Source: Bacteroidales bacterium (GTDB taxonomy: Bacteria; Bacteroidota; Bacteroidia; Bacteroidales; UBA932). Taken from it: a stretch of DNA of 15,213 nt. The DNA lies in NCBI GenBank assembly GCA_017483985.1, contig JAFUUB010000073.1:1-15213 (forward strand). Direction: 5' to 3'. Numbering within the stretch: position 1 is the first letter of the stretch; each line of letters begins with the position of its first letter. A model generated the notes under the pieces. The model saw nothing but the letters and a program-made list of their open reading frames with translations. It searched no databases and was not told the origin of the DNA. Both the position numbers and the translations under genes were made by a program. Below are positions 2,841 to 15,059 of this stretch, piece after piece.

Positions 2841-2858
2841 AGCATGGAGGATAAACAT

Positions 2859-4613
2859 ATGAAAATGAACATCTTCAAATATACCGCCCTTGTCGCTGTC
2901 CTTTGCTTCGGCGCCGTCTCCTGCGAGAAGTTCCTGGACCGTCCGGCTGAGGATTCCTACAACGAGGCCAATTTCTACCAGGATGCCAGCCAGTGCATCC
3001 AGGGCGTCAACTACCTCTACAATTCCCCGTGGTATGACGTCATCCGCGGTTTCTACCGGGTCGGCGAGTGCTTCTCCGGCAATTACTACATGGGTGACAG
3101 CCCCTATCTGCAGTTCAATGTCAACGGTTCTGACAAGGAACTCCGTGACATGTCCAGTTCCCTGTGGGCCGTCAATTCCAATGCGACCGTCGTCTACAAC
3201 CGGTTGAAGAACACCACCGGCGTAGACCAGGCCACCCTTGACATGTGCATGGGCGAGGCCCTGACCTGGAAAGCCTTTGCGTATTTCTTCCTGGTCCGCA
3301 CCTTCGGCGAAGTACCGATCATGCATGACATCTCGGCTGCCATCGCCGCAGGCGACTACAACAACCTGTACAAGGCGCCGAAGGAGGATATCTACAACTA
3401 TATCGTGATGATCCTCGACAAGGCCATGACCCTCCTTCCGAAGAAGGTGGCCAACAAGGACGGCCGGATCGACTACTACAGCGCCGAAGCCCTGCTGGCC
3501 AAGGTCTACCTGCAGAAGGCCGGCGTGACCGGTACCCTCAACCAGGACGACCTGGACAAGGCGGCCGCCTATGCCAAGGATGTCATCGAGAACTCCGGCC
3601 GCGAGCTGATGGAGAACTACAGCGACATCTTCCGCATGCAGAACAACAAGAACATCGAGGCCCTGATCTCCTGGCACTGGGATGCTTCCGCGCAGCCTTG
3701 GACCGCGCAGAACTCTTTCCAGAGTGACTTGGCCATGAACGGTTTCGACGAGTTCGGCGACTGCTGGGGCCAGTGGAACGGTCCTTCCATCGCGCTGCAG
3801 GATGCCTTCGGTGTCAGCGCCGCCATGGATCCGGCCCAGCGCAATGACGTGGATACCCGCCGCAAGGCGACCATGATGCTCCCGGGCGATACCTATGATT
3901 ACTTCTGGACCGACTGGGGCGGTTTCGACTACCTGCGGTTCTTCTATGACAAGAACTATGGCCCGAGCGGTTCGACGAATGCTTCCGACGGCGCCCTGAA
4001 CTCGCCGACCGGTGCCGGCTGCGTCAAGTTCCTCTATGGCGACGGTGCTGACCACCAGGCCGCCCTGGGCGTTTCCGCAAGCCGTATGGCCTATGGTCTT
4101 TCCACCCATATCCTCCGCCTGGCCGATATCTATCTGGTCTATTGCGAGGCCAAACTGCACGGTCCGGGATCCTCTACGAGCGACGCCCTCGCCGTCCAGT
4201 GCTACAACGACATCCGCAACCGCGCCATCCCGGGCAGTTGGAGCGAGGTCTCTTCCATCACCTTCGAACAGGTCTGGAAGGAACGCAACCTGGAACTGGC
4301 CCTCGAAGGCGACCGTTGGTACGACTACGTCCGCGTCGGTTATTACAACCCGAGTTTCGTCGTGGCCGACATCCAGGCCCAGCGTCGCAACAACTTCAGC
4401 GGAAGCCTCGATGACGTTGCGAAGGCTTACTACGAGACCGGTGTCTGGAACGGTACGGGCATCACGTATAACGAGAATGAGAACCCGGTTCCGTCCGAGT
4501 CCGCCATCCTTGCCAAGATCGCTGCACTTCCGTTCCCGTCTGAGGATGTGGTTTACAACCCGCACCTGGACGAACCGGCCCAGCCGTTCGATCTCTCCAC
4601 CATTACTTTCTAA
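2859..4613 (+). CDS. susD: SusD-family nutrient-binding outer-membrane lipoprotein
   Basis: SusD-like proteins sit on SusC as a lid and bind the target glycan at the cell surface. I chose the ATG at 2859 over the in-frame ATG at 2844. It gives a clean signal peptide (MKMNIFK, hydrophobic core, lipobox AVSC with lipidated Cys22), and a GGAGG at 2846-2850 sits 8 bases before it, overlapping the 2844 start. Family signatures are the N-terminal CEKFLDRPAEDSY, the helical segment around residues 130-150 with AFAYFFLVRTFGEVPIM, TPR-like helices (YSAEALLAKVYLQKAG), and the C-terminal ERNLELALEGDRWYDYVRVG. Its 584 residues are normal for the family. It follows SusC and precedes two binding lipoproteins 18 bp downstream, the standard PUL order. 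Ligand specificity cannot be read from sequence; mannan or glucomannan is inferred from the enzymes downstream. Confidence 0.95.
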   Translation: MKMNIFKYTALVAVLCFGAVSCEKFLDRPAEDSYNEANFYQDASQCIQGVNYLYNSPWYDVIRGFYRVGECFSGNYYMGDSPYLQFNVNGSDKELRDMSSSLWAVNSNATVVYNRLKNTTGVDQATLDMCMGEALTWKAFAYFFLVRTFGEVPIMHDISAAIAAGDYNNLYKAPKEDIYNYIVMILDKAMTLLPKKVANKDGRIDYYSAEALLAKVYLQKAGVTGTLNQDDLDKAAAYAKDVIENSGRELMENYSDIFRMQNNKNIEALISWHWDASAQPWTAQNSFQSDLAMNGFDEFGDCWGQWNGPSIALQDAFGVSAAMDPAQRNDVDTRRKATMMLPGDTYDYFWTDWGGFDYLRFFYDKNYGPSGSTNASDGALNSPTGAGCVKFLYGDGADHQAALGVSASRMAYGLSTHILRLADIYLVYCEAKLHGPGSSTSDALAVQCYNDIRNRAIPGSWSEVSSITFEQVWKERNLELALEGDRWYDYVRVGYYNPSFVVADIQAQRRNNFSGSLDDVAKAYYETGVWNGTGITYNENENPVPSESAILAKIAALPFPSEDVVYNPHLDEPAQPFDLSTITF

Positions 4614-4631
4614 TTTAACCGGCCAACGAAT

Positions 4632-5960
4632 ATGAAAAAATACATAATGAAGTTTGGTTTGATGACGGTCGCGCTGTTCGGCCTCGCAATGGGTTTTACC
4701 GCCTGCGAGGATGAACCGGACCGGTTCGAACTGACCGACGGACTCCCGACCATCCACTACGTCCGTCCGATCGACGTGGCGGTGAAGGATTCCCTGCTGA
4801 CCAGCGCCTACATGGGCAACGGCATCTGCATCGTGGGTGACAACCTGCGCAGCGTCTACAAACTGGTGTTCAACGACCAGGAGGCCGTGCTGAACAACAG
4901 CTACATCACCGACCATACCCTGTTGGTCGACGTCCCGAGCACGATTCCGGGCGAGGTGTCCAACAAGATCTATTTCTACAACAAGAAGGGCGACATGGTG
5001 GACTACGATTTCAGTGTCCTCGTGCCGGGACCGACCATCGCGTCTATGTCCAACGAATTCGCGCTTCCGGGCTCCGTCGCCACCCTGTACGGCGATTACT
5101 TCATCGATGACCCGAACGTGCCGCTGACCCTGGAGATCGGCGATACGCCGGTCACCGATATCAAGGAGATCAGCAAGGGCTACATCCGTTTCACCGTTCC
5201 GGAGGGAGCGGAAGAAGGCGAGGTCTCCGTGAAGACCGTTTACGGCGAGACGACATCCGTCTTCCATTACAAGGATTCCCGCGGCAGCCTCTTCAATTTC
5301 GACAGCGACCCGCATCCGACCAACCACGGCTGGCACGGCCAGGTCATCGAGACCGACGAAACGGCCCTGGACGGCAACTTCCTCCGCCTCGGCGGCGTGG
5401 ATGTCCTGATGGATGCTGACGGTGGCTGGAACGACGGCAACTTCTCCTTCGAGTACTGGCCGGGTGACGGCTGGGGCGACGTGGAGGACTATGCCACCGG
5501 CAAGCGGCTGACCGACTTCGTGGACTTCTCCGATTGGGAGAACATGGCCCTCAAGTTCGAGCTGTACGTCCCGAAGGCCAATCCTTGGAGCGCCGGTTCC
5601 ATGCAGCTGATCGTGGGCGGCGTGGACAAGATTACGGGCGCTGCATCCGGTATCCCGGATATCGATGGAACGATCGTCGCCGGTGCCAACAACACCTACT
5701 TCAACAACGACGAACTCCCGCGCGGCCTGTATACGCCTTGGGTGACCACCGGTTCCTTCGATACCAATGACGAGTGGATCACCGTGACCGTGCCGTATTC
5801 CAACTTTATCTATGGTGCATCCGGTGTCCCGGCCAAGGGCAAACTCACCGCATCCGACTTTACCTCGCTGACCATCTTCGTGTGGAGCGGCGGCAACAAG
5901 GGTACGGAATGCCACCCGGTCATCAAGATCGATAACATCCGTGCCGTTCCTGTCAAATAA
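4632..5960 (+). CDS. Surface glycan-binding lipoprotein, SGBP-B-like (IPT/TIG plus C-terminal glycan-binding domain)
   Basis: This is a predicted surface lipoprotein that holds polysaccharide next to SusC/SusD; it is not an enzyme. The 442-residue protein has a signal peptide with lipobox FTAC (Cys25), followed by EDEPD. That acidic stretch resembles the Bacteroidetes lipoprotein export signal and supports surface display. Two Ig-like/IPT modules follow at about residues 38-131 and 132-214; the second has the PGSVATLYGDYF and FTVPEGAEEGEVSV pattern typical of TIG folds. From about 219 to 442 lies a larger beta-rich domain with many exposed-type aromatics (HGWHGQ, GGWNDGNFSFEYWPGDGWG, WSGGNKG) ending in KIDNIRAVPVK. 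This matches the layout of SGBP-B proteins of xyloglucan and mannan PULs, whose C-terminal domain binds glycan. It lies 18 bp after susD and 3 bp before the next start. Architecture is clear; the ligand is inferred. Confidence 0.85.
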   Translation: MKKYIMKFGLMTVALFGLAMGFTACEDEPDRFELTDGLPTIHYVRPIDVAVKDSLLTSAYMGNGICIVGDNLRSVYKLVFNDQEAVLNNSYITDHTLLVDVPSTIPGEVSNKIYFYNKKGDMVDYDFSVLVPGPTIASMSNEFALPGSVATLYGDYFIDDPNVPLTLEIGDTPVTDIKEISKGYIRFTVPEGAEEGEVSVKTVYGETTSVFHYKDSRGSLFNFDSDPHPTNHGWHGQVIETDETALDGNFLRLGGVDVLMDADGGWNDGNFSFEYWPGDGWGDVEDYATGKRLTDFVDFSDWENMALKFELYVPKANPWSAGSMQLIVGGVDKITGAASGIPDIDGTIVAGANNTYFNNDELPRGLYTPWVTTGSFDTNDEWITVTVPYSNFIYGASGVPAKGKLTASDFTSLTIFVWSGGNKGTECHPVIKIDNIRAVPVK

Positions 5961-5963
5961 TTG

Positions 5964-8264
5964 ATGAAGACCATGAAAAAGATAATCAAATTCTCCGCAA
6001 TCATCGCTTCCTGCCTGCTCGCGCTCGGCCTGGCTTCCTGCTCCCACAAGGAGCTGGACACCGACCAGTTCTCCAGCAAGGAAGTGACCCTGAATGCCTA
6101 TGGTCCGCTGCCTGTCGCACGCGGCGGTGTCCTCCGCTTCATCGGTTCCAACCTGGACCAGGTGACGGCGGTCAACATCCCGGGCGTGGGCTCCCTGACC
6201 AACATCACGGTCGTCAAGTCCGGCGTGCCGAGCGAGATTACCGTGACCCTTCCGAAGGACGGCCCGGAACCGGGTACCGTTTCCATTACCACCAAGGACG
6301 GCAAGACCATCAATGCCGTCACCCCGATCAGCTATACGGAGCCGATTTCCATCGAGTCCGTCACCCCGGCGACCGTATACCCGGGCGACGAACTGACGAT
6401 CGAGGGTGACTACCTGAACCTCATGCACGAGGTCATCTTCGAGAAGGATGTCTTCGTGTCCGAGAACAACTTTGTCAGCCACGACCGCTACAAGATCGTG
6501 GTCAAGGTCCCGGCCGAGGCCCGGACGGGCGCCGTCGGCGTGGGCGATGTCGATGAAATCAACCTTCCTGAGGATTCCAAGGTGATTGCCAATCAGATCT
6601 TCTTCGAGGAAGAGACCGTGGTCGGCACCGCCGAAGGCTCCCTCGTCAAGACGACCCTCAAGGCCGGCGAGACCGCGACCGTCAAGGGTTCGCACTTCGA
6701 CCTGGTCACCGCGGTCAAGATTGGCAATGTTGAAATCGAAGACTTTAAGGCTTCTGCTTCCCAGCTGACCTTCACCCTCCCGGCCGAAGCCGCCGACGGG
6801 GACGTGCTGATGGTCATGGCTTCCGGCGTGGAAGTTTCCGCCGGCAAGCTGGAGACCGTCAAACCGTCGGAATTGAAGGCCGCTCCCGCCCCGGTCAAGG
6901 CCGGTCAGACCCTCACCATCACCGGTAAGGACCTCGACCTCGTGACGGGTATCGAGCTGCCGAATGCCGGCTGGGTGGAATTCCAAGGCAGCGAGGCCAT
7001 CACCTTCGAGATGCCTGCGGCCGCCCAGGAAGGCGATGCCACACTGCAGATGGCCAACGGCCTTTCCGTGACCGTGGCTTACACCCTGGTCAAGCCGGTG
7101 GTTGAGAGTTACAGCGCCAACCCGGCCGCTGCCGGTTCCGACGTGACTCTTAACGGTACCGACCTGGATCTGGTGACCGCCGTGACCTTCGCCCAGGACC
7201 TTACCGTGGAGGTAAAGGATCCTGCCGCCGATGCCCTGACGGTGGCCGTCCCGACGGCTGCTGAGACGGGCAAGCTCCTCCTGTCCCTGGCCAACGGCAC
7301 GCAGGTCGAGGCTCCCGAACTTGCCATCGACAAGCCGGCCGGCGCCTACATCGCCGTCTTCCCGGAGGACCTGTATGCACCGGGCACCATGTTCATCGTC
7401 GACATCGAGAACGCCGAGCACCTGACCGGCGTCCAGGTTGACGGCGTGGATGTGACCTACATCCTCAACGGCAGCACCCTGTACTTCTCCATCCCGGCCG
7501 ATGCGACCCGCGGCAGCCAACTGACCCTGGTCTCCGACAACGGCAGCGTGACCTACACGATGAACATCGATCCGGGTGACTTCATCGTCACGCCGATCTG
7601 GACCGGTTCCTTCGAACTGGGCAACTGGGGCGGCCTGCAGGCGTTGGCTTGGGGCGGCTATGACTGGAGTACGGTCAAGCCCGGCCAGATCCTCCGCATC
7701 GAGGCCGAGAGCGCACTTGCCGAAGGTGAGTGGTGGTGCTACACCCTCAAGAGCGGAACGAAGTGGGACGAACTGGCCGGCGGTCCCGGACAGATCGACA
7801 ACCCGACGAACCCGTATGATATCGTCCTGACGCAGGAAATGATCGATGACCTCATCGCCAACAACGGCCTTGTCATCCAGGGTTACATGGGTATCATCAA
7901 GCGGATTTGCATCGTCGACGACCTTCGTTACGGGACGACCATCTGGTCGGGTTCCCAGGAACTGGGTAACTGGGGCGGTCTGCAGGCATTGGCCTGGGGC
8001 GGCTATGACTGGAGCACGGTCAAGGCCGGACAGACCCTGTATATCCATTCCACCCCCGACGTAGCCGAAGGTGAGTGGTATTGCTATACGCTCAAGAGCG
8101 GAACGAAGTGGGACGACCTGGCCGGCGGCCCCGGACAGATTAACAACCCTGAAAGTCCGCTGGGTATCAAGCTCAACCAGGAGATGGTCGACGACCTGAA
8201 CAACAACAACGGTCTCGTCATCCAGGGATACATGGTGACGATTACCGCCGTCTCCCTGAAGTAA
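5964..8264 (+). CDS. Multi-IPT/TIG surface lipoprotein with duplicated C-terminal Trp-rich module
   Basis: This 766-residue lipoprotein has no recognisable catalytic motif and is probably a long surface glycan-binding protein. ATG 5964 directly follows the previous stop; ATG 5973 (MKKIIKF) is equally plausible and a TTG at 5961 less so. The signal peptide ends in lipobox LASC with Cys26. About six consecutive Ig-like/IPT modules span residues 40-540. Several carry variants of one strand motif: NLDQVTAV, HFDLVTAV, DLDLVTGI, DLDLVTAV and EHLTGV. Residues 545-766 hold two copies of a 115-residue unit, each with NWGGLQALAWGGYDWSTVK, AEGEW, CYTLKSGTKWD and NGLVIQGYM. The copies are 75/98 identical by hand alignment. 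The aromatic richness suggests a carbohydrate-binding beta-sandwich, but I do not recognise a named family. The context, between SusD-type genes and glycanases, supports a binding role. Confidence 0.8.
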   Translation: MKTMKKIIKFSAIIASCLLALGLASCSHKELDTDQFSSKEVTLNAYGPLPVARGGVLRFIGSNLDQVTAVNIPGVGSLTNITVVKSGVPSEITVTLPKDGPEPGTVSITTKDGKTINAVTPISYTEPISIESVTPATVYPGDELTIEGDYLNLMHEVIFEKDVFVSENNFVSHDRYKIVVKVPAEARTGAVGVGDVDEINLPEDSKVIANQIFFEEETVVGTAEGSLVKTTLKAGETATVKGSHFDLVTAVKIGNVEIEDFKASASQLTFTLPAEAADGDVLMVMASGVEVSAGKLETVKPSELKAAPAPVKAGQTLTITGKDLDLVTGIELPNAGWVEFQGSEAITFEMPAAAQEGDATLQMANGLSVTVAYTLVKPVVESYSANPAAAGSDVTLNGTDLDLVTAVTFAQDLTVEVKDPAADALTVAVPTAAETGKLLLSLANGTQVEAPELAIDKPAGAYIAVFPEDLYAPGTMFIVDIENAEHLTGVQVDGVDVTYILNGSTLYFSIPADATRGSQLTLVSDNGSVTYTMNIDPGDFIVTPIWTGSFELGNWGGLQALAWGGYDWSTVKPGQILRIEAESALAEGEWWCYTLKSGTKWDELAGGPGQIDNPTNPYDIVLTQEMIDDLIANNGLVIQGYMGIIKRICIVDDLRYGTTIWSGSQELGNWGGLQALAWGGYDWSTVKAGQTLYIHSTPDVAEGEWYCYTLKSGTKWDDLAGGPGQINNPESPLGIKLNQEMVDDLNNNNGLVIQGYMVTITAVSLK
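7596..8255 (+). repeat. Tandem in-frame duplication encoding two Trp-rich modules
   Basis: Unit one runs from 7596 to 7940 and unit two from 7941 to about 8255, a period of 345 bp (115 codons). Long blocks match at DNA level, for example the stretches at about 7617-7680 and 7962-8025, which differ at only a handful of mostly third-codon positions. Divergence is concentrated in the middle (unit one residues 578-586 against unit two 693-701) and at the end, where unit one has a linker to unit two and unit two finishes the protein with ITAVSLK. The duplication appears recent compared with the much more diverged IPT modules upstream. Confidence 0.9.
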
Positions 8265-8270
8265 CCTTTT

Positions 8271-8302
8271 ATTCCGGAGGGGGCTGACCCTCCCTCCGGG
8301 AT
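8271..8302 (+). terminator. GC-rich hairpin between binding-protein and enzyme genes (attenuator or mRNA-processing candidate)
   Basis: A perfect 8-bp inverted repeat, CCGGAGGG (8274-8281) with CCCTCCGG (8292-8299), encloses a 10-base loop. Flanking T-G, T-A and A-T pairs extend the stem to 11 bp. It lies 6 bases after the stop of the multi-IPT gene and 14 bases before the GH26 start, in the only such gap inside the operon. No T-run follows, so it is not a classical intrinsic terminator. It could stabilise the 3' end of the susCD/SGBP message or partly attenuate transcription into the enzyme genes. The fold is visible; the function is inferred. Confidence 0.45.
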
Positions 8303-8316
8303 CCAATTTATAAACT

Positions 8317-9765
8317 ATGAAACGGATATTTTCTTTGATGCTGGCAACCGCCACCGCAGCCTTGCTCTGGTCCTGCGGCGGCAATGCCGACCCGGACCCG
8401 GATCCGACTCCGGCCGCTCCGAAGAACGTCACTCTTTCCGCGACTTCCGCCAACGTGGCCCAGGCCGGAGAGGAGATCACGCTCGATATCACGGCTCCGG
8501 CCCGCCCAGCCGTTTCCGGCGCTCCGGACTGGATCTCGGTGCGCGAAGGCATCTACAACAGCCAGACCTATGTCATGACCGGCGTCAAGCTGACGGTCGC
8601 GGCCAATACGACCTACGAAACCCGCACCGCCACCCTCACCTTCAAGGCCGGAACGGCTTCCGCAACCTTCCAGGTCAGCCAGGCCGGCCGGACCAAACCG
8701 GCGGATCCGGACAACAAGAACCTGTCCAAGTCGCTGGTGACGGCCGATCCGACACCCAATGCCAAAGCCCTTTTCGATTATTTCCTGGGTGTTTATGGAA
8801 AGAAAACAGTTTCCTCGGTCGTGGCGGATGTCAACTGGAATTACAAGGAGGCTGAAAAGATCCATACGGCAACGGGTAAGTATCCGGCGATAAATTGTTA
8901 TGATTTTATCCAGATCTATGTCCCGTCCGGAAACAATTGGATTAATTACAATGATCTTACGCCGGTTACGGATTGGTACGATGCCGGTGGCATCGTGTCG
9001 CTGATGTGGCATTTCAATGTGCCGAGGAGTGAGTCTACAGTCATTGGGACAGATGGCAGTGGTGTGACTTGCAGTCCGTCCGAGACCACTTTCAAAGCCT
9101 CGAATGCCCTGGTCTCCGGTACCTGGGAGAACAAGTGGTTCTATGATGAGATGGATAAGGTTATCGAAGTAATCCTGAAACTTCAAGAGAAGGGGATAGC
9201 GGCGACCTGGCGCCCTTTCCATGAGGCTGCAGGAAATGCCACGCTCAAGGAATCGGCATCTTGGGCGACATCCTGGTTCTGGTGGGGAGCTGATGGGGCT
9301 GAAACTTATAAGAAACTCTGGAAAGCTATGTTCGAACACTTCGGCGAGAAGGGGGTGCGGAACCTGATCTGGGTCTGGACGACGCAGAATTTCAATGGGG
9401 ACTCCTCTAAGTACAATCAGGATAAGGATTGGTACCCCGGGGATGCCTATGTGGATATGGTCGGTCGGGATCTATATGGTACCAGTTCAGACAAGAATGC
9501 CCAGGAATGGGATGAGATCCAGAAAGCCTATCCGAAAAAGATGGTCTGCCTGGCAGAATGCGGAAATGCTGTGGATAATGATACAAAGAAGGTTACAGCC
9601 TACTTCCCAAAATTGACAGATGTTTGGAATGCCGGAGCATATTGGCTGTCTTTCATGCCCTGGTATGGCGCCAACATGCCAGACAATACATGGTGGAAAG
9701 ATGCGATGAACAGTGAGATTATAATATCACGCGATGAACTGCCTTCCGACTTGTTTACGAAATAA
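8317..9765 (+). CDS. BACON-GH26 lipoprotein, predicted endo-beta-1,4-mannanase
   Basis: This enzyme is predicted to hydrolyse internal beta-1,4-mannosidic bonds with retention of configuration. It has a signal peptide ending in LLWSC (lipidated Cys20), a flexible DPDPDPTP tether, and a BACON-type Ig-like domain at about residues 36-125 (DWISV, NTTYETRTATLTF, VSQAG). The GH26 TIM barrel covers about 143-482. The catalytic pair is visible: acid/base Glu303 in WRPFHEAAGN and nucleophile Glu414 in CLAECGN. The active-site wall is WFWWG (320-324). About 16 residues separate the acid/base from WFWWG, against four in the GH26 at 11325, so a loop there is longer. The aspartates after Cys20 and the BACON spacer suggest surface display, by analogy with the surface endo-mannanase BoMan26B of Bacteroides ovatus. 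GC content falls at about base 8760, where the catalytic part begins. The family call is firm; substrate is inferred. Confidence 0.9.
   Translation: MKRIFSLMLATATAALLWSCGGNADPDPDPTPAAPKNVTLSATSANVAQAGEEITLDITAPARPAVSGAPDWISVREGIYNSQTYVMTGVKLTVAANTTYETRTATLTFKAGTASATFQVSQAGRTKPADPDNKNLSKSLVTADPTPNAKALFDYFLGVYGKKTVSSVVADVNWNYKEAEKIHTATGKYPAINCYDFIQIYVPSGNNWINYNDLTPVTDWYDAGGIVSLMWHFNVPRSESTVIGTDGSGVTCSPSETTFKASNALVSGTWENKWFYDEMDKVIEVILKLQEKGIAATWRPFHEAAGNATLKESASWATSWFWWGADGAETYKKLWKAMFEHFGEKGVRNLIWVWTTQNFNGDSSKYNQDKDWYPGDAYVDMVGRDLYGTSSDKNAQEWDEIQKAYPKKMVCLAECGNAVDNDTKKVTAYFPKLTDVWNAGAYWLSFMPWYGANMPDNTWWKDAMNSEIIISRDELPSDLFTK
8374..8688 (+). repeat. Paralogous lipoprotein-tether/BACON segment, copy 1 (pairs with 9835-10149)
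   Basis: Bases 8374-8688 and 9835-10149 encode the same 105-residue segment, from the lipidated Cys to the SQAG that ends the BACON domain. The copies are colinear with no gaps (constant offset of 1461 bp) and 82/105 residues are identical by hand count. The similarity stops just after SQAG, where the GH26 and GH5 catalytic regions start. This is an ancestral module copied in front of two unrelated enzymes. Confidence 0.88.
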
Positions 9766-9774
9766 TTCGAGCAT

Positions 9775-11322
9775 ATGATGAGATACCTCTGGAAACTACT
9801 TCCCGCCTTTGTATTGACGGCCGCCCTGGCTTCCTGCGGCGGAAATGCCGATCCGGATCCGACCCCGACCCCGGTGGCCCCGACGACCGTGACGTTGTCC
9901 TCCGCCTCCGCGAATGTCGCACAACCCGAAGAAGAAATCACCCTTGACATCACCGCACCATCCCGCCCGGAAGTCTCCGGCGCACCGGACTGGGTGACGG
10001 TCAAGCTCGGCATCTACGATGCCAAGACCTTTAAGATGACCGGTGTCAAGATCACGGTGGCGGCCAATCCCACGTATGAGACCCGGACCGCGACCCTGAC
10101 CTTCAAGGCCGGCACCGCCTCCGCGACCTTCGCCCTCAGCCAGGCGGGGAAAGAACCGGTTGTTGTCCCGACGCTTCCGGACAATGATGCTGTGGCGATG
10201 GCTCGCAAGATCGGCCTGGGCTGGAACATGGGGAATGAACTGGAGGCCCATAACAATGGTTTTGTTGATGAAACGGCGTGGACGGGAGTCCTCGCAACCC
10301 AAGCGACATTTGATGCTGTTAAAGCGGCAGGTTTTACAAGCGTTCGAATTCCGATTTCCTGGCTTGATAAAATTGGAGATGCTCCCGATTATACCTTATC
10401 TTCCGACCGTTTGGAGCGGGTTGCGGAAGTAGTGGGATATGCCAAGAATGCGGGTTTGGTTACCATCATCAACACCCATCATGATGGTGCCGATAGCCAG
10501 TATTGGCTTTCCGTCCTACAGGGAGCCGACAATAATACCATCACGGAAAAGATCAAGAAGGTATGGATGCAAATCGCGGAACGCTTTAAAGATGAGGGAG
10601 ATTGGCTGATTTTTGAGTCTTTCAATGAGATACAAGATGGCGGATGGGGATGGAGCTCGGAATATCAGACCGCTGCTGGGAAAAAACGCCAAAATGACAT
10701 CTTAAATGGCTGGAACCAGACATTTGTAGATGCGGTACGGACAACAGGAGGAAATAATGCCAACCGATGGCTGGGTGTTCCTGGATATGCTGCAGATCCG
10801 GTAAGGACGCTTGATGACGGATTTGTCGTGCCGGAAGATCCGGCCGGGAAGATCATGGTCGCTGTCCATAATTATACTCCATATGACTTTTGCCAGACTG
10901 CAAAAGCCAGCGAGTGGGGCCATACTCGAAAGACAAACCTGACCGATGAGTCATATAATGAAGATTATCTTAGGGCTGTTTTCAATAGACTCTATCAGAA
11001 ATGGGTTTCCAAGAACATCCCGGTTTATTGGGGAGAGTTTGGTTGTGTTAACCGATCGGCCGGAAAAGCTCGTCAATTCCAATTATATTACTTAGAATAT
11101 GTTTCCAAACTCTCCCGCTGTTTCGGGATGGGTGGCTTGATTTGGGATAATGGTGCCAAGAGTGGGAATGGAGAGTTATATGGTATTATCCACCATGGTA
11201 CTGGTGAGTATTTGGATGCGTCATATGGCCCCATGATCGTAAATGCATGTAAAAAAGGATTCCAAAGTGAAGATGCATCTTATACGCTGGATACCATTTA
11301 TGACGCTGCTCCTACCCCGTAA
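9775..11322 (+). CDS. BACON-GH5 lipoprotein, subfamily-4-like endo-beta-1,4-glucanase/mannanase
   Basis: This is predicted to be a retaining endo-glycanase acting on beta-1,4-glucan, glucomannan or mannan backbones. ATGs at 9775 and 9778 are both possible; the lipobox is LASC (Cys21). A DPDPTPTP tether and a BACON-type domain (about 34-125) are followed by a GH5 barrel (about 136-500). GH5 signatures are GWNMGNELEA, the VRIPISW strand, INTHHDG, acid/base Glu285 in FESFNEIQ, a VHNYTPYDF strand and nucleophile Glu421 in YWGEFG. The pattern, especially GWNMGN with AGFTSVRIPISW and the RVAEVVGYA helix, looks like GH5_4 (endoglucanase/xyloglucanase/glucomannanase) rather than GH5_7 mannanases. Within a mannan locus this suggests glucomannan attack. 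The catalytic half is strikingly AT-richer than its own front end and the next gene. It starts 9 bp after the preceding stop. Subfamily assignment is moderate. Confidence 0.88.
   Translation: MMRYLWKLLPAFVLTAALASCGGNADPDPTPTPVAPTTVTLSSASANVAQPEEEITLDITAPSRPEVSGAPDWVTVKLGIYDAKTFKMTGVKITVAANPTYETRTATLTFKAGTASATFALSQAGKEPVVVPTLPDNDAVAMARKIGLGWNMGNELEAHNNGFVDETAWTGVLATQATFDAVKAAGFTSVRIPISWLDKIGDAPDYTLSSDRLERVAEVVGYAKNAGLVTIINTHHDGADSQYWLSVLQGADNNTITEKIKKVWMQIAERFKDEGDWLIFESFNEIQDGGWGWSSEYQTAAGKKRQNDILNGWNQTFVDAVRTTGGNNANRWLGVPGYAADPVRTLDDGFVVPEDPAGKIMVAVHNYTPYDFCQTAKASEWGHTRKTNLTDESYNEDYLRAVFNRLYQKWVSKNIPVYWGEFGCVNRSAGKARQFQLYYLEYVSKLSRCFGMGGLIWDNGAKSGNGELYGIIHHGTGEYLDASYGPMIVNACKKGFQSEDASYTLDTIYDAAPTP
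9835..10149 (+). repeat. Paralogous lipoprotein-tether/BACON segment, copy 2 (pairs with 8374-8688)
   Basis: This is the second copy of the 105-residue CGGNADPDP-to-SQAG segment, inside the GH5 gene. Unchanged blocks include SGAPDW, TVAAN and YETRTATLTFKAGTASATF. Substitutions are mostly conservative (I/V, R/K, S/T) and lie in the tether and surface loops. Base composition matches the rest of the locus, unlike the catalytic region that follows. Confidence 0.88.
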
Positions 11323-11324
11323 TT

Positions 11325-12461
11325 ATGAATAAAATGAAAATTCTTCAGAAAATAATCCTCCTGTCGGCGGCTTCGGCCGTTGCACTGGCCGCCTGCGGGA
11401 ATAAAGAAGTGAAACCGATGGAGACCCCGAAGGACCGCCTGGTGGCGCAACTGTTCGACGCCGTCAAGTCCGGCAAGATCCTGTACGGCCATCAGGATGA
11501 CCTGGTGTACGGCCATGCCTGGAAAGTGGAAGATGTCGCAAACGATCCGCTCGAACGCTCGGATGTCAAGGCGGTGACCGGTCATTTCCCGGCCATGGTC
11601 GGTTTCGACCTGGGCGGCATCGAGATGGGCTGGAACGCCAACCTGGACGGTGTTTCCTTCGACCTGATGCGCCGTGCGGCCGTGACCCATGCGGCCCGGG
11701 GTGGCGTGGTGACCTTCTCCTGGCATCCGCGCAACCCGCTGACCGGCGGAGACGCCTGGGATGTGTCCTCCGACCAGGTCGTCGCGTCCATCCTCGAGGG
11801 AGGGGAGAAGCATGACCTCTTCCTGCAATGGCTCGGTCGGGCGGCTGATTTCCTGGAGACCCTCAAGGATGCCGACGGCCGGCCGGTCGCGGTGCTGTTC
11901 CGCCCTTGGCACGAACATACCGGCAGCTGGTTCTGGTGGGGCGAAAACCTCTGCTCGGAGCAGCAGTACAAGGACCTGTTCCGGATGACGTATGGCTATC
12001 TGACCGGCACCCGGGGACTGACGAATCTCGTCTGGGTCTACTCGCCGGGTTCCGGGATCACCCCGCAGCGGTACATGAGCCGCTATCCGGGCGATGAGTT
12101 CGTGGACATGCTCGGGATTGACGACTATCAGTCTGTCGGCGCAGACCAGTCCCTTGCGAATGCGGAAGCGGGCTATATCGCAGGGATGAAAGAGAGCCTG
12201 ACCTTCATGAACGCGCTGGCGCAGGAACATGAGAAACTGATGTGCCTGTCCGAGACCGGATTCGAAGGCATCCCGGATCCGTCCTGGTGGACAAACACCT
12301 TGCTCCCTGCCATCCAGGATTTCCCGATCGCCTATGTGCTGACCTGGCGCAATGCCCACGACAAGCCCGGCCATTTCTATGCCGCCTGGCCCGGTTCAGG
12401 TGACGCGGCGGATTTCAAAGCATTTGCCGGGAGCGATAACATATTGTTACTGAACGAATAA
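11325..12461 (+). CDS. manA: GH26 beta-mannanase, ManA-like, probable periplasmic mannobiose-releasing enzyme
   Basis: This compact 378-residue GH26 lipoprotein resembles Bacteroides ManA/BoMan26A enzymes that release mannobiose from mannan oligosaccharides. The signal peptide ends in LAAC (Cys24), followed by GNKEVKPME with no acidic cluster, so an inward-facing periplasmic position is likely. No accessory module precedes the barrel, which starts near residue 36 (KDRLVAQLFDAVKSGKILYG). GH26 signatures are YGHQDDLVYG (54-63), TFSWHPRNP (130-138), acid/base Glu197 in LFRPWHEHTGSWFWWG, and nucleophile Glu310 in CLSETGFEGIP. It starts 2 bp after the GH5 stop, and a GH130 phosphorylase and a symporter follow. 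That order matches the Bacteroides fragilis mannan-catabolic operon as I recall it. GC content returns abruptly to the locus level at this gene. The exo mode is inferred from homology, not visible. Confidence 0.9.
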   Translation: MNKMKILQKIILLSAASAVALAACGNKEVKPMETPKDRLVAQLFDAVKSGKILYGHQDDLVYGHAWKVEDVANDPLERSDVKAVTGHFPAMVGFDLGGIEMGWNANLDGVSFDLMRRAAVTHAARGGVVTFSWHPRNPLTGGDAWDVSSDQVVASILEGGEKHDLFLQWLGRAADFLETLKDADGRPVAVLFRPWHEHTGSWFWWGENLCSEQQYKDLFRMTYGYLTGTRGLTNLVWVYSPGSGITPQRYMSRYPGDEFVDMLGIDDYQSVGADQSLANAEAGYIAGMKESLTFMNALAQEHEKLMCLSETGFEGIPDPSWWTNTLLPAIQDFPIAYVLTWRNAHDKPGHFYAAWPGSGDAADFKAFAGSDNILLLNE

Positions 12462-12480
12462 ACCTAAATCTGACTTATAT

Positions 12481-13641
12481 ATGACATTTGAAGAGAGACT
12501 GGCTTGCCTGGAACAAGCCCATGCGGCCCTTTTGGCAAAAAAGAATGAGCCGGTCTATGTGAACGGTGTTTATGAGCGGTATCGCAACCCGATCCTGACC
12601 GCGGAACATGCCCCGCTTTTCTGGCGATATGACCTGGACAAGGAGACAAATCCTTTCCTGCTGGAGCGGTTCGGCATCCATGCCGCATTCAACTCCGGCG
12701 CCATCAAGTGGGGGGACAAGTACCTGCTGTGCGTACGGGTGGAGGCGGCCGACCGCAAGTCCTTCTTCGCCATGGCCGAGAGCCCGAACGGCATCGACAA
12801 CTTCCACTTCTGGGACCGTCCGGTGACCCTTCCGGACTATGGGGAGCCGGCAACGAATGTCTATGACATGCGCTTGACCCCGCATGAGGATGGCTGGGTG
12901 TACGGCATCTTCTGCGTGGAGCGGAAGGATCCCGCCGCCCCGAAGGGCGACCTTTCCTCCGCTGTGGCCTGCGCCGGCGTGGTCCGTACGAAGGATTTCA
13001 TCCACTGGGACCGCCTGCCGGACATCGTCAGCGGCAGCCAGCAGCGCAATGTCGTGCTGCATCCGGAATTCATTGACGGGAAATATGCCCTGTATACCCG
13101 CCCGCAGGACGGCTTCATCGACGCCGGCAACGGCGGCGGTATCGGCTGGGCCCTGGTGGATACCATGGACGGCGCCGTGATCCGGGAGGAGAAGATCATC
13201 AACCTGCGTCATTACCATACGATCAAGGAGTGCAAGAACGGGGAAGGCCCGGCACCGATCAAGACCCCGAAGGGCTGGCTGCACCTGGCCCATGGCGTCC
13301 GCGGCTGTGCGAGCGGCCTCCGCTATGTGCTGTACCTGTACATGACGGCCCTGGACGATCCGTCCCGCGTCATTGCTGAACCGGCCGGATTCTTCATGGT
13401 CCCGGAAGGGGAGGAGTATGTCGGTGACGTGATGAATGTCCTCTTTACCAATGGCTGGATCGCGGATCCGGACGGGAAGGTCTATATCTACTATGCCTCC
13501 TGCGATACGCGGATGCATGTGGCGACTTCGGATGTGGACCGCCTGGTCGATTACTGCCTGCATACGGAGCCGGACGGCTTCACGACCACCGACACGGTGC
13601 GCCGTTTGAACCGGCTGATTGACCGGAATCTCGCAAAATAA
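12481..13641 (+). CDS. GH130 phosphorylase, probable 4-O-beta-D-mannosyl-D-glucose phosphorylase
   Basis: GH130 enzymes break beta-mannosides with inorganic phosphate and inversion, yielding alpha-mannose-1-phosphate. The 386-residue protein has no signal peptide, so it acts in the cytosol. The start MTFEERLACLEQAH begins the helical N-terminus usual for GH130_1. Motifs are RYRNPILTAEHAPLFWRYD (34-51), FNSGAIKWGDKYLLCVRVE (70-88), TNVYDMRLTPHEDGWVYG (125-142) with the likely proton-donor Asp129, and HTIKECKNGEGPAPIKTPKGWL (residues 246-267). The Asp position agrees with Asp131 recalled for the B. fragilis mannosyl-glucose phosphorylase. Similarity and gene order favour subfamily 1 (mannosyl-1,4-glucose) over subfamily 2 (mannobiose or longer). 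The enzyme recovers mannose-1-phosphate and glucose without spending ATP. It lies 19 bp after the GH26 and 33 bp before the transporter gene. Confidence 0.9.
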   Translation: MTFEERLACLEQAHAALLAKKNEPVYVNGVYERYRNPILTAEHAPLFWRYDLDKETNPFLLERFGIHAAFNSGAIKWGDKYLLCVRVEAADRKSFFAMAESPNGIDNFHFWDRPVTLPDYGEPATNVYDMRLTPHEDGWVYGIFCVERKDPAAPKGDLSSAVACAGVVRTKDFIHWDRLPDIVSGSQQRNVVLHPEFIDGKYALYTRPQDGFIDAGNGGGIGWALVDTMDGAVIREEKIINLRHYHTIKECKNGEGPAPIKTPKGWLHLAHGVRGCASGLRYVLYLYMTALDDPSRVIAEPAGFFMVPEGEEYVGDVMNVLFTNGWIADPDGKVYIYYASCDTRMHVATSDVDRLVDYCLHTEPDGFTTTDTVRRLNRLIDRNLAK

Positions 13642-13644
13642 TCG

Positions 13645-13652
13645 TATATTCG
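13645..13652 (+). promoter_or_regulatory. Possible Bacteroidetes -7 promoter element upstream of the symporter
   Basis: TATATTCG at 13645-13652 differs by one base from the Bacteroidetes -7 consensus TAnnTTTG, and lies 22 bases before the symporter start. A TTG at 13619-13621 could act as the -33 element, but the 23-base gap is longer than the usual 19-21. It would give the transporter extra transcription independent of the PUL operon. The match is weak and such motifs arise by chance. Confidence 0.25.
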
Positions 13653-13674
13653 CGGAAATTTAACCACATTTACA

Positions 13675-15036
13675 ATGGCCCAAACGACAGACAAACCGAC
13701 CCTGAAAGAAAAAATCGGCTATGCCCTGGGAGATGCCGCCGCCGGCGGTATTACCTGGAAGGTGATGTCGATCGCATTCCCGCTGTTCTTTACCAACATT
13801 TTCGGCCTCACCGTCGCCGATACGGCGACCCTGATGCTGGTTGCGCGCCTCTTCGATGTCGTCACGGACCCGCTAATGGGTTCGCTGGCGGACCGGACGC
13901 AGTCGCGCTGGGGAACGTACCGGCCGTGGATCATCTTCGGAGCCATCCCGCTGGGTGTCGTTTTCGCCTTGCTGCTCTTCACCCCGGACTTCGGCCCCGT
14001 GGGCAAGCGCATCTACGCCTATACGCTGTACCTGCTCATGATGGCGGTCTACACCGCCGTCAACGTCCCATACGGCTCGCTGCTGGGCGTGATGACGGAC
14101 GATGACAACGAGAAGAACGAGTTCTCTTCCTACCGGATGGTGGGCGCCTACGCCATGGGCTTCGTTACCCTGCTATCCTTCCCGTACCTGCAGAAGATGG
14201 TCGGCGGTACGCCGGCACATCAGTATGCGGTCCTGGGCGTCCTGCTGGGCGGCCTGGCGGCCCTGGGAACGCTGGCCTGCGGCCTGCTGACCAAGGAGCG
14301 GCTGAAACCCGTCCGTGCGGAGAAATTCTCCCTCAAGCCGTTCGCCGACCTGTTCCGCAACAAACCGTGGATCTACCTGACGCTGGTCGGTATCTGCATG
14401 AACTTCTTCAACGGTTTCCGCTATGCCGTCGCGGGTTATCTGCTGGAGTACTGCCTCCATGGCGACGTGACCGTTTCCGGCCTGATCATCAACTATACGG
14501 TGTTCATGACCTTCGGTGAGGTGACCTGTATGATCTTCGGCGGCGTTTCCCCGAAGTTTACCAAGTGGGTCGGATCCAAGCGGAAGGCTTTCTCCTGGGC
14601 GGCCCTGCTGTGCGCGGTTTCGTCCGTGGCCTTCTTCTTCATCCCGATGGACCCGAAGTACATCTGGATGATGATCGCCGTGGTCATCATCACATCCATC
14701 GGCATCGGCCTTTTCTCCCCGCTGCTGTGGTCCATGTATGCCGACGTCGCCGACTATGCCACCGAGAAGAACGGTACGTCTTCGACCGGCCTCATCTTCT
14801 CTTCCGGCACGATGTCCCAGAAGTTCGGTTCCGCCATTTCCGGCGCGCTCGTCGCGCTGCTCCTGGGCCTTTCCGGCTTCGTCTCCGGCACCGATCCCGC
14901 CACGGGACAGACGGTCGTGACCATCACGAACGAGGCCTCGGTCCAGCACATGATCTGGTCACTGTTCTCCCTCTTCCCGGCCGCGATCGCGCTGCTCATC
15001 GTCTTCCTGCTTCGCCTTTATCCGATCAAGAAATAA
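13675..15036 (+). CDS. GPH-family (MelB-like) sugar:cation symporter
   Basis: This 453-residue inner-membrane protein is predicted to take mannobiose or mannosyl-glucose from periplasm to cytosol with a coupled cation, feeding GH130. The start MAQTTDKPTLKEKIGYALGDAAAGG is the classic GPH opening. The loop after helix 2 holds ARLFDVVTDPLMGSLADRTQSRWGTYRPW. Its Asp61 and Asp65 occupy the places of the MelB cation-binding aspartates, and the Arg-rich turn is a family hallmark. About 12 hydrophobic segments are spread over the length, with a central cytoplasmic loop at about 200-230 (LLTKERLKPVRAEKFSLKPF). A second-half GPH signature is seen in the SMYADVADYATEKNGTSSTG region. The length is normal and the C-terminus (LYPIKK) looks complete. 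The IS end lies about 23 bp after the stop. Family is certain; substrate is inferred from context. Confidence 0.92.
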   Translation: MAQTTDKPTLKEKIGYALGDAAAGGITWKVMSIAFPLFFTNIFGLTVADTATLMLVARLFDVVTDPLMGSLADRTQSRWGTYRPWIIFGAIPLGVVFALLLFTPDFGPVGKRIYAYTLYLLMMAVYTAVNVPYGSLLGVMTDDDNEKNEFSSYRMVGAYAMGFVTLLSFPYLQKMVGGTPAHQYAVLGVLLGGLAALGTLACGLLTKERLKPVRAEKFSLKPFADLFRNKPWIYLTLVGICMNFFNGFRYAVAGYLLEYCLHGDVTVSGLIINYTVFMTFGEVTCMIFGGVSPKFTKWVGSKRKAFSWAALLCAVSSVAFFFIPMDPKYIWMMIAVVIITSIGIGLFSPLLWSMYADVADYATEKNGTSSTGLIFSSGTMSQKFGSAISGALVALLLGLSGFVSGTDPATGQTVVTITNEASVQHMIWSLFSLFPAAIALLIVFLLRLYPIKK

Positions 15037-15059
15037 AGAGAATGCCCCGGAATTTTTGA

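Follow-up and report, generated by a model that had tools for sequence, protein, structure and literature searches.

How do two neighbouring genes come to share almost the same beginning while encoding unrelated enzymes of different base composition? The window analysed here is a 15,213-nucleotide stretch of a Bacteroidales bacterium (contig JAFUUB010000073.1) carrying a GH26 and a GH5 gene of this kind side by side. An earlier note, made from the letters of this DNA, proposed that a resident lipoprotein/BACON cassette had been joined to catalytic domains from lower-GC donors, possibly after one duplication seeding both fusions. Comparison with related genomes leads us to conclude, with high confidence, that both genes are chimeras, their catalytic domains being recurrently replaced behind a resident leader and BACON by recombination between genomes.

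Locus organization and base composition

The window is probably a (gluco)mannan utilization locus, ordinary apart from the two chimeric genes. Its gene order and orthologues fit an adjacent SusC/SusD pair with CAZymes, SusC and SusD being named by sequence recognition. The features are listed below, with identities to the relative G001 where given.

3..2840, +, SusC-like TonB transporter (ORF, 5' end cut by the window; orthologues 62-85% identical in related loci of the genus)
2844..4613, +, SusD-like glycan-binding lipoprotein (ORF; 99% to the available part of the G001 copy)
4632..5960, +, surface glycan-binding protein SGBP_B_XBD (Pfam PF18329, E=2e-43; 98.6%)
5961..8264, +, second surface glycan-binding protein, with TIG domain (PF01833; 97%)
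8317..8682, +, GH26 gene, front end that was kept, with lipoprotein leader and BACON (PF13004)
8683..8757, +, 5' border region of the GH26 swap, in the interdomain linker (blastn identity with G001 stops at 8683)
8746..9765, +, replaced GH26 catalytic domain, type I (PF02156, E=7e-41)
9726..9850, +, 3' border region of the GH26 swap: GH26 gene end, gap and GH5 leader
9775..10149, +, GH5 gene, front end that was kept, with lipoprotein leader and BACON (PF13004)
10143..10186, +, 5' border region of the GH5 swap, in the linker (identity falls from 90% to 60% at 10150)
10150..11322, +, replaced GH5 catalytic domain, type a (PF00150, E=8e-49)
11323..11370, +, 3' border region of the GH5 swap, within the next gene's signal peptide (identity resumes at 11352)
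11325..12461, +, GH26b, a second GH26, resident (PF02156; 94.7%)
12481..13641, +, GH130 mannooligosaccharide phosphorylase-like, resident (PF04041; 99%)
13675..15036, +, GPH-type MFS sugar transporter, resident (PF13347, TIGR00792; 99.6%)

We found no Rfam matches or tRNAs in the window, and between 8150 and 11500 promoter- and terminator-like sites were in no clear excess over shuffled sequence (4 versus 2.7, sd 1.9, and 5 versus 2.7, sd 1.8).

The GH26 and GH5 proteins match by BLASTP with E=1e-44, and the best gap-free segment covers 105 residues, GH26 19-123 against GH5 20-124. Its 82 identities are exactly those counted earlier, as are the GC counts of 24, 23 and 38 in three 60-base lines. 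Past this segment identity collapses to 1/21 (residues 126-146) and 5/104 (147-250). Pfam places an N-terminal BACON behind a lipoprotein signal in both proteins (65-123 and 66-124; PF13004, 44.3 and 40.0 bits, cut-off 25), followed by GH26 at 141-431 or GH5 at 166-462. Cysteine 20 or 21 is invariant in the homologue alignments, and both products are predicted lipoproteins. The GH26 domain scores 141.1 bits (cut-off 20.2), and E303 (WRPFHEAAG) and E414 (AECGN), which we take to be its two catalytic glutamates, are invariant among 30 aligned homologues. The GH5 domain scores 167 bits, and E285 and E421, presumably its catalytic glutamates, are invariant among 29. The GH5 probably belongs to subfamily 4 (GH5_4); its structural-chain matches include ones named GH5-4 and xyloglucanase. 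Several solved chains matching the GH26 are named mannanase (6ueh and 3wdq, for example), and the best ones (6d2x, 6d2w, 6hf2) are named otherwise.

Base composition changes with the module. The leader/BACON segments have 64.1% and 63.5% GC, against 48.5% in 8746-9765 and 47.2% in 10150-11322, and GC3 falls from 0.80 and 0.78 in the front ends to 0.57 (GH26) and 0.45 (GH5) in the catalytic parts. The window's catalytic-minus-flank GC3 differences (-0.36, -0.23) are the two lowest among 108 values in the compared loci, the other 106 having a mean of -0.02 (sd 0.05). Among 104 ORFs on 20 contigs of G001, only 2 have lower GC3 than the GH5 catalytic part, an extreme value, and 11 have lower GC3 than that of the GH26, which is moderately low.

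Comparison with the closest relatives

Our relatives are draft assemblies, one per species, and the GH26 and GH5 types are our own grouping by best BLAST reference. The window and G001 are sisters on a flanking-gene tree built by a quick method, with less than half of the columns for G001, G018, G061, G064, G359 and G464, and with G297 and G444 left off for too few columns. Flanking DNA is 96.4% identical to G001 over 3860-8683 and 95.7% over 11352-15057; between these flanks the sole match at its own position is the BACON of the GH5 gene (88.7% DNA). BACON proteins are 88% (GH26 gene) and 92% (GH5 gene) identical to those of G001, and those of other genomes reach at most 51% in the domain comparison that included G001. 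The catalytic domains share only 37-41% (GH26; type II in G001) and 52% (GH5; type b in G001). A second relative, G359, is about 98% identical in nucleotides over 8201-8745 (leader, BACON and linker of the GH26 gene) and carries a type III GH26 catalytic domain, 51% identical to the window's; its later genes are only about 81% alike, and positions 9726-9765 match it at 33/40. The leaders and BACONs are thus those of the resident lineage, whereas each of the two catalytic domains is of another kind than its counterparts in the closest relatives.

Catalytic and BACON trees disagree, and module phylogeny conflicts with that of the flanks: AU tests reject a clade of window and G001 for the GH26 catalytic domain (p 5e-49) and one of window, P0121 and G001 for that of GH5 (p 2e-38). 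The BACON tree, built on 102 columns, leaves many forks open; the group in it that includes the BACONs of window and G001 (91/81) is unstarred and lacks G359. These conflicts, with the matching flanks and BACONs, bear out the earlier proposal that a resident front end was kept while catalytic domains came from elsewhere.

We give practically no credence to the idea that nothing was transferred, the catalytic domains having diverged faster in place with a low GC typical of such domains. Catalytic GC3 does lie slightly under the flanks on average in the compared loci (by the 0.02 given above), and G001's own GH26 catalytic GC3 (0.65) is below its flanks (0.80). However, catalytic GC3 in relatives tracks that of their own loci and reaches 0.82 (GH26) and 0.88 (GH5), which speaks against intrinsically GC-poor domains, a reading we rejected, and against low-GC codons conserved in all homologues. 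The window GH26 catalytic domain is 67-68% identical to that of G034 (type I), far above its identity to G001 despite the 96% flanks. Identity in BACON generally trails that in the catalytic part, with median differences of -10 and -16 points over 1308 and 1366 pairs that, like those of the change-point analysis, are not independent, and the trees and AU tests contradict this reading as well.

Borders and direction of the probable swaps

Each swap has one border at or near the linker that joins BACON to the catalytic domain and the other close to where the next gene begins. Identity drops sharply at the module border beside near-identical flanks, broadly for GH5 at the protein level. The loss of DNA identity to G001 at 8683, and again near 10150, agrees with breakpoints placed earlier near 8690-8760 and 10150-10200. 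In predicted structures, from which we took interdomain positions, the last BACON strand of the GH26 protein ends at residue 122 (base 8682) and the first catalytic helix begins at residue 147; in the GH5 protein BACON would end at residue 123 and the catalytic helix begin at 138. The GH26 change points fall at residues 120 (against P0241) and 143 (against P0044), and that of GH5 is broad (about 127-156, window against G001). For change points in genome pairs, the sequences compared kept no more than 128 residues ahead of the catalytic domain, and window indices run 2 (GH26) or 3 (GH5) below protein numbering. The GH5 leader resembles that of P0138 and P0146; P0145 and P0167, of the G001 kind, bear a different one.

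For GH5 the window holds the derived state. Eight of the 11 GH5 proteins with a BACON of the window kind are type b (G001, G359, P0138, P0145, P0147, P0149, P0167, P0194), not all independently, since P0145 matches the G001 protein and P0147 that of G359; the remaining three are the window and P0121 (type a) and P0146 (type c). The window is likely to be derived for GH26 too, less certainly than for GH5. The argument there depends mainly on P0242 and P0243, the next-nearest BACON relatives, which carry type II domains 90-91% identical to G001's, because GH26 GC3 is not extreme and G001's own GH26 also lies below its flanks.

Relatives with near-identical flanks carry other catalytic domains rather than close full-length orthologues. 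One close full-length relative exists for GH5, P0121 (BACON 97%, catalytic domain 100%), and it is the same chimera. The GH26 chimera occurs in one contig only among the matches listed. The window GH5 catalytic domain is 68% identical to that of G074, and among the matches listed and the fetched loci no donor is closer than 68% (GH26) or 71% (GH5).

It is very unlikely that the contig is an assembly artefact joining pieces of different genomes at repeated BACON sequences. The contig is 15.2 kb long, the relatives are drafts, BACON is present twice, and the G359 contig begins within the shared segment. Such an artefact would, however, have to preserve the reading frame at four junctions, and the GH5 one turns up again in 3 contigs of up to 57.7 kb, with a BACON 97% and not 100% identical (P0121). 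Other chimeras occur as differing alleles (P0241, in 19 contigs, P0044 and P0102), and breaks fall at matching places in other genome pairs.

Recurrence across the genus

A search with BACON alone recovered 23 proteins, 16 of them GH26 or GH5. BACONs 82-94% identical to a window BACON precede GH26 types II and III and GH5 types b and c, and in P0121 a BACON of 97-98% precedes GH5 type a. Exchanges that kept BACON are seen in other pairs (G038/G389, G373/G202, G311/G296, P0138/P0146). On the flanking-gene tree of 58 loci, types changed at least 14 times for GH26 and at least 13 times for GH5, against 3 each had every type arisen once. Since loci were fetched for matching the window, the type counts do not measure prevalence.

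Whole genes may move as well. Of the 64 GH26 pairs whose flanks reach 85% identity, 23 have a BACON that trails the catalytic domain by 20 points or more, and some of them resemble whole-gene replacement (for instance G043/G241: flanks 97, BACON 52, catalytic 80). It is possible, though unlikely, that one donor segment replaced the whole block of GH26a and GH5, the BACON parts being restored from resident DNA later or in the same event. Both GC-poor domains are adjacent, such whole-gene pairs exist, and leader/BACON segments seem mobile between species, as the roughly 98% identity of window and G359 beside later genes of about 81% suggests. Against this, GH26 type I occurs with GH5 type a in only 1 of 50 two-gene loci, the window itself; the two imports differ in GC3 (0.57 versus 0.45); and swaps sparing the neighbour's catalytic part are known (G038/G389, G311/G296).

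Bacteroidales shufflons also place several types behind one kind of N-terminus, as seen here, and a site-specific recombinase might exchange silent catalytic cassettes of the same genome. Among the 25 long-range inverted repeats listed, three have an arm near a junction (I17 at 8670, I16 at 10190, I7 at 11360), but they are 20-22 nt long and 77-95% identical, with partner arms 4-7 kb off and at no other junction. In each of the 8 draft genomes searched with type I and II domains only one copy of the GH26a type was found, further matches being GH26b or distant genes (29-38%). Alternative cassettes were thus found in 0/8, and we rejected them, at a completeness of 79-98% that leaves room for a missed one. 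No recombinase was recognized among the 7 of 9 window proteins scanned. We consider such phase-variable shuffling highly improbable.

A tandem of BACON-GH26 and BACON-GH5 recurs throughout the genus, so the cassette was not newly joined to foreign enzymes. An N-terminal part longer than 60 aa is present in 52/53 GH26a and 55/57 GH5 genes of the fetched loci, which were partly chosen by BACON search, and BACON matches occur in 85/120 GH26 and 120/120 GH5 homologues (the best 120 of 7997 and 7999 scored candidates, those sharing most words). Because such front ends are common, we conclude that the imported domains took the place of homologous GH26 and GH5 ones and therefore, contrary to the suggested retargeting of foreign glycanases, were not newly brought to the surface. 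Nor is a single founding duplication supported: in 17 of 18 genomes the GH26-BACON is nearer another genome's than its own genome's GH5-BACON, the exception being L081 (G401 was left out of the counts as its duplicate). In the window lineage the two BACONs are 73-76% identical, nearer to each other than to those of more distant genomes, and some later copying between the two genes is therefore likely.

Discussion

We suggest that DNA of other Bacteroidales entered the cell and that recombination replaced each catalytic domain, leaving the resident anchor, reading frame and operon in place. The products would remain lipoproteins at the surface, acting extracellularly on mannan or glucomannan through another catalytic variant. 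Exchanges of this kind have occurred repeatedly in the genus. Whether leader and BACON form a fixed evolutionary docking module, behind which at least three deep GH26 and at least four GH5 types are repeatedly exchanged near the same linker to re-tune cutting, we regard as evenly balanced. If so, secretion, anchoring, regulation and the partner transporter would stay untouched while substrate cutting is re-tuned, and the BACON segment would be both a structural spacer and a homology handle for recombination.

Three close relatives bear three different GH26 cores behind a nearly identical anchor. Such natural, near-matched chimeras offer a way to ask what each GH26 or GH5 type contributes on mannan, glucomannan or xyloglucan, and a case in which to study how recombination at the level of domains arrives at its borders. 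They also warn that annotating polysaccharide utilization loci (PULs) by flanking genes or N-terminal similarity can give the wrong catalytic type.

Exchange of PULs among gut Bacteroidales is already known for whole loci and genes. The unit of exchange here is a single catalytic domain, replaced recently enough for donor-like base composition to persist. In searches of openly licensed papers, outside which most subscription papers lie, none of those listed dealt with catalytic domains being swapped while BACON stays. For mosaic Bacteroides PULs, a β-mannan PUL included, conjugative chromosome transfer and homologous recombination between core 'node' genes have been proposed (PMC8845570); what moves between core genes in that description is an entire PUL or gene, whereas here a single catalytic domain is exchanged and the PUL kept. 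BACON has been proposed to be a membrane-bound spacer with many different C-termini (PMC11216935). Architectures of BACON/DUF1735 spacers are compared there across proteins, while what varies here, among close relatives whose loci are nearly identical, is the catalytic domain.

The window GH5 matches 3ZMR over residues 56-460 and, like that protein (BoGH5A, a BACON-GH5 endo-xyloglucanase), has an N-terminal lipoprotein part and BACON ahead of GH5. A solved relative of the GH26, 6d2w/6d2x, comes from Prevotella bryantii. Identity of the type I domain to the GH26 portion of proteins that combine GH26 and GH5 (P0068, P0072, P0086, P0087) is 65-67%. The glucomannan PUL 7 of Segatella copri unites SusC/D, GH26, GH5_4 and GH130, with GH26|GH5_4 as a bimodular enzyme (PMC12704710). 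The window likewise combines SusC/D-like genes, GH26, GH5 and GH130, but unlike that bimodular enzyme its GH26 and GH5 are encoded separately, and both genes have a BACON of their own.

Results

Catalytic domains behind a retained front end

All nine genes of the window lie on one strand, in the order SusC-like, SusD-like, two surface glycan-binding proteins, BACON-GH26 (GH26a), BACON-GH5, a second GH26, GH130 and an MFS transporter; SusC-like and SusD-like are putative names, recognised from sequence. Further features are these:

3-8552, minus strand: open antisense frame of 2850 aa that spans genes 1-4 and enters gene 5, most probably a codon-bias shadow
7590-7890 and 7935-8235: the second surface glycan-binding protein has its C-terminal unit duplicated in tandem (345-base period, 80-86%)
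8317-9765: GH26a; its database protein P0001 (396 aa) begins at internal Met87, losing the lipoprotein leader and part of the BACON, likely a gene-calling error
8670-8689 (I17), 10190-10211 (I16) and 11360-11379 (I7): arms of long-range imperfect inverted repeats of 20-22 nt, one per junction zone, with partner arms 4-7 kb off inside other genes; their placement is probably chance

The gap-free front-end match between the GH26 and GH5 proteins reported in the earlier note (82/105 identities) and its three GC counts were reproduced exactly. In predicted structures this similarity stops at residue 122/123, the end of the last BACON strand, and the first catalytic helix begins at residue 147 (GH26) or 138 (GH5).

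Comparison with G001, the nearest of the genomes compared, gives direct evidence that the cores were replaced. DNA identity is 96.4% over 3860-8683 and 95.7% over 11352-15057, and the only own-position match between these flanks is the GH5 BACON (88.7% over 9865-10235). In 50-base steps, identity is 94-100% over 7900-8400, 66-94% through the GH26 BACON up to 8700, 33-73% over 8700-9850 (the GH26 catalytic part, the gap after the gene and the GH5 leader), 89-96% in the GH5 BACON (9850-10150) and 34-84% in the GH5 catalytic part, returning to 92-100% from 11350. The BACON proteins are 88% (GH26) and 92% (GH5) identical to those of G001, and at most 51% to those of all other genomes compared. Against G001 the catalytic domains reach only 37% (GH26; 41% in another alignment) and 52% (GH5), whereas the GH26 domain shares 67-68% with its counterpart in genome G034 and the GH5 domain 68% with the one in G074. 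The GH5 leader (9775-9850) is alike in the window and the proteins P0138 and P0146 and different in P0145 and P0167 (the G001 kind), so leaders too have been exchanged.

A second relative, G359, matches window 8201-8745 at ~98% DNA identity, from the last part of the glycan-binding gene through leader and BACON to the linker. The match breaks at the linker end, beyond which lies a third GH26 kind, 51% identical to the window's and 92-93% to P0044 and P0102. Later genes of G359 are at ~81% DNA identity. Since window 8201-8745 and L123:1-545 (G359) are ~98% alike although the later genes are only ~81% alike, the leader/BACON segment itself seems to have moved recently between species. BACONs 82-98% identical to the window's front three GH26 types. 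The GH5 proteins P0138 and P0146 share 95% identity up to residue 130 and 64% beyond it.

Catalytic types behind window-kind BACONs, by best BLAST reference
GH26 type I: window
GH26 type II: G001, P0241
GH26 type III: G359, P0044, P0102
GH5 type a: window, P0121
GH5 type b: G001, G359, P0138, P0145, P0147, P0149, P0167, P0194 (n=8, not all independent)
GH5 type c: P0146

The flanking-gene tree makes the window and G001 sisters (99*), with G359 next (100*). In both catalytic trees the window lies far from G001; a window+G001 clade is rejected for GH26 (p 5e-49), as is a window+P0121+G001 clade for GH5 (p 2e-38). The BACON tree, built on 102 columns and with many unresolved forks, places window and G001 in one group (91/81, not starred).

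Third-position GC is 0.57 (GH26) and 0.45 (GH5) in the catalytic parts, against near 0.8 for the locus, and the window's two catalytic-minus-flank values are the lowest of 108. Among 104 G001 ORFs, 2 have a lower value than the GH5 part, which makes it extreme, and 11 a lower value than the GH26 part, which is only moderately low. For the GH26 import, composition by itself is not proof; the proof lies in the sequence comparison with G001 and G359.

These comparisons bear out the earlier proposal of imported catalytic domains behind a kept leader and BACON, as G001 and G359 share the front ends and carry other cores, and they place the breaks where it did, at or near the BACON-catalytic linker. 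A new fusion of BACON to catalytic domains, and a single duplication seeding both fusions, were wrong. The wider finding is that catalytic domains are exchanged recurrently behind a retained BACON anchor.

Recurrence in the genus

Retrieval of the locus from further genomes of the genus yielded 60 distinct loci, the window among them (53 with GH26a, 57 with GH5). Genomes G038 and G389 share 95% in the flanks, 87% in the BACON and 36% in the GH26 catalytic domain, with DNA identity lost at about codon 125 and regained at the GH5 start codon. For G373 and G202 (flanks 83%, BACONs 97-98%, GH26 catalytic 40%, GH5 catalytic 67%), GH26 identity is lost near codon 126 and regained at the GH5 start. 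For G311 and G296 (flanks 88%, GH5 BACON 94%, GH5 catalytic 33%), GH5 identity is lost near codon 131 and regained close to where the next gene starts. The G311 GH5 (L124:10615-12150), 33% identical to that of G296 behind a 94% identical BACON, is of another kind; the solved chains that match it best are 6xso and 3vdh.

Mapped on the flanking-gene tree, switches of GH26 type number at least 14 (18-27 in 200 label shuffles) and those of GH5 type at least 13 (15-21 in shuffles); single origins would need 3 in each case. The counts fall below the shuffles but above the single-origin need, and types therefore partly follow descent and often switch.

The BACON is not invariably kept. Among 64 GH26 pairs with flanks at least 85% identical, the catalytic domain differs behind a BACON at least 80% identical in 4, and both parts differ in 1. 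In 23 the BACON lies at least 20 points below the catalytic part, and the other 36 show nothing unusual. The same classes hold 3, 4, 10 and 44 of the 61 GH5 pairs.

Gene content at this position also varies. G038 carries two additional ~500-aa genes with lipoprotein-like starts between the glycan-binding gene and GH26a (L070:9032-12181, minus strand), where its close relative G389 has only ~90 bases. In L066 (G074), which lacks GH26a, BACON-GH5 directly follows the glycan-binding gene; a crossover between two BACONs could have produced this locus.

Discussion

No silent alternative GH26a cassette was found in the eight draft genomes examined; each has a single GH26a-type copy, which suggests that alternatives pass from genome to genome and are not stored. 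The seven of nine window proteins scanned included no mobile-element gene. PMC8845570 proposes homologous recombination with incoming chromosomal DNA for Bacteroides PULs, and by analogy this is the likely route here. Upstream homology would be supplied by the glycan-binding gene end, leader and BACON, and downstream homology by the next gene. Because BACONs from more distant genomes share only ~50% identity, the origin of the first chimera is hard to explain by homology; the first of each kind could have been a rare microhomology event that then spread within the species group.

Putative catalytic glutamates are present in both imported domains, so the products should, as judged from these residues, be active surface enzymes. 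The closest solved chains are 6d2x/6d2w for GH26 type I and 6hf2 for types II and III, and several further solved matches of the GH26 domains are named mannanase. Comparison with the Segatella copri glucomannan locus described in PMC12704710 makes glucomannan or another β-mannan the likely substrate of the window locus.
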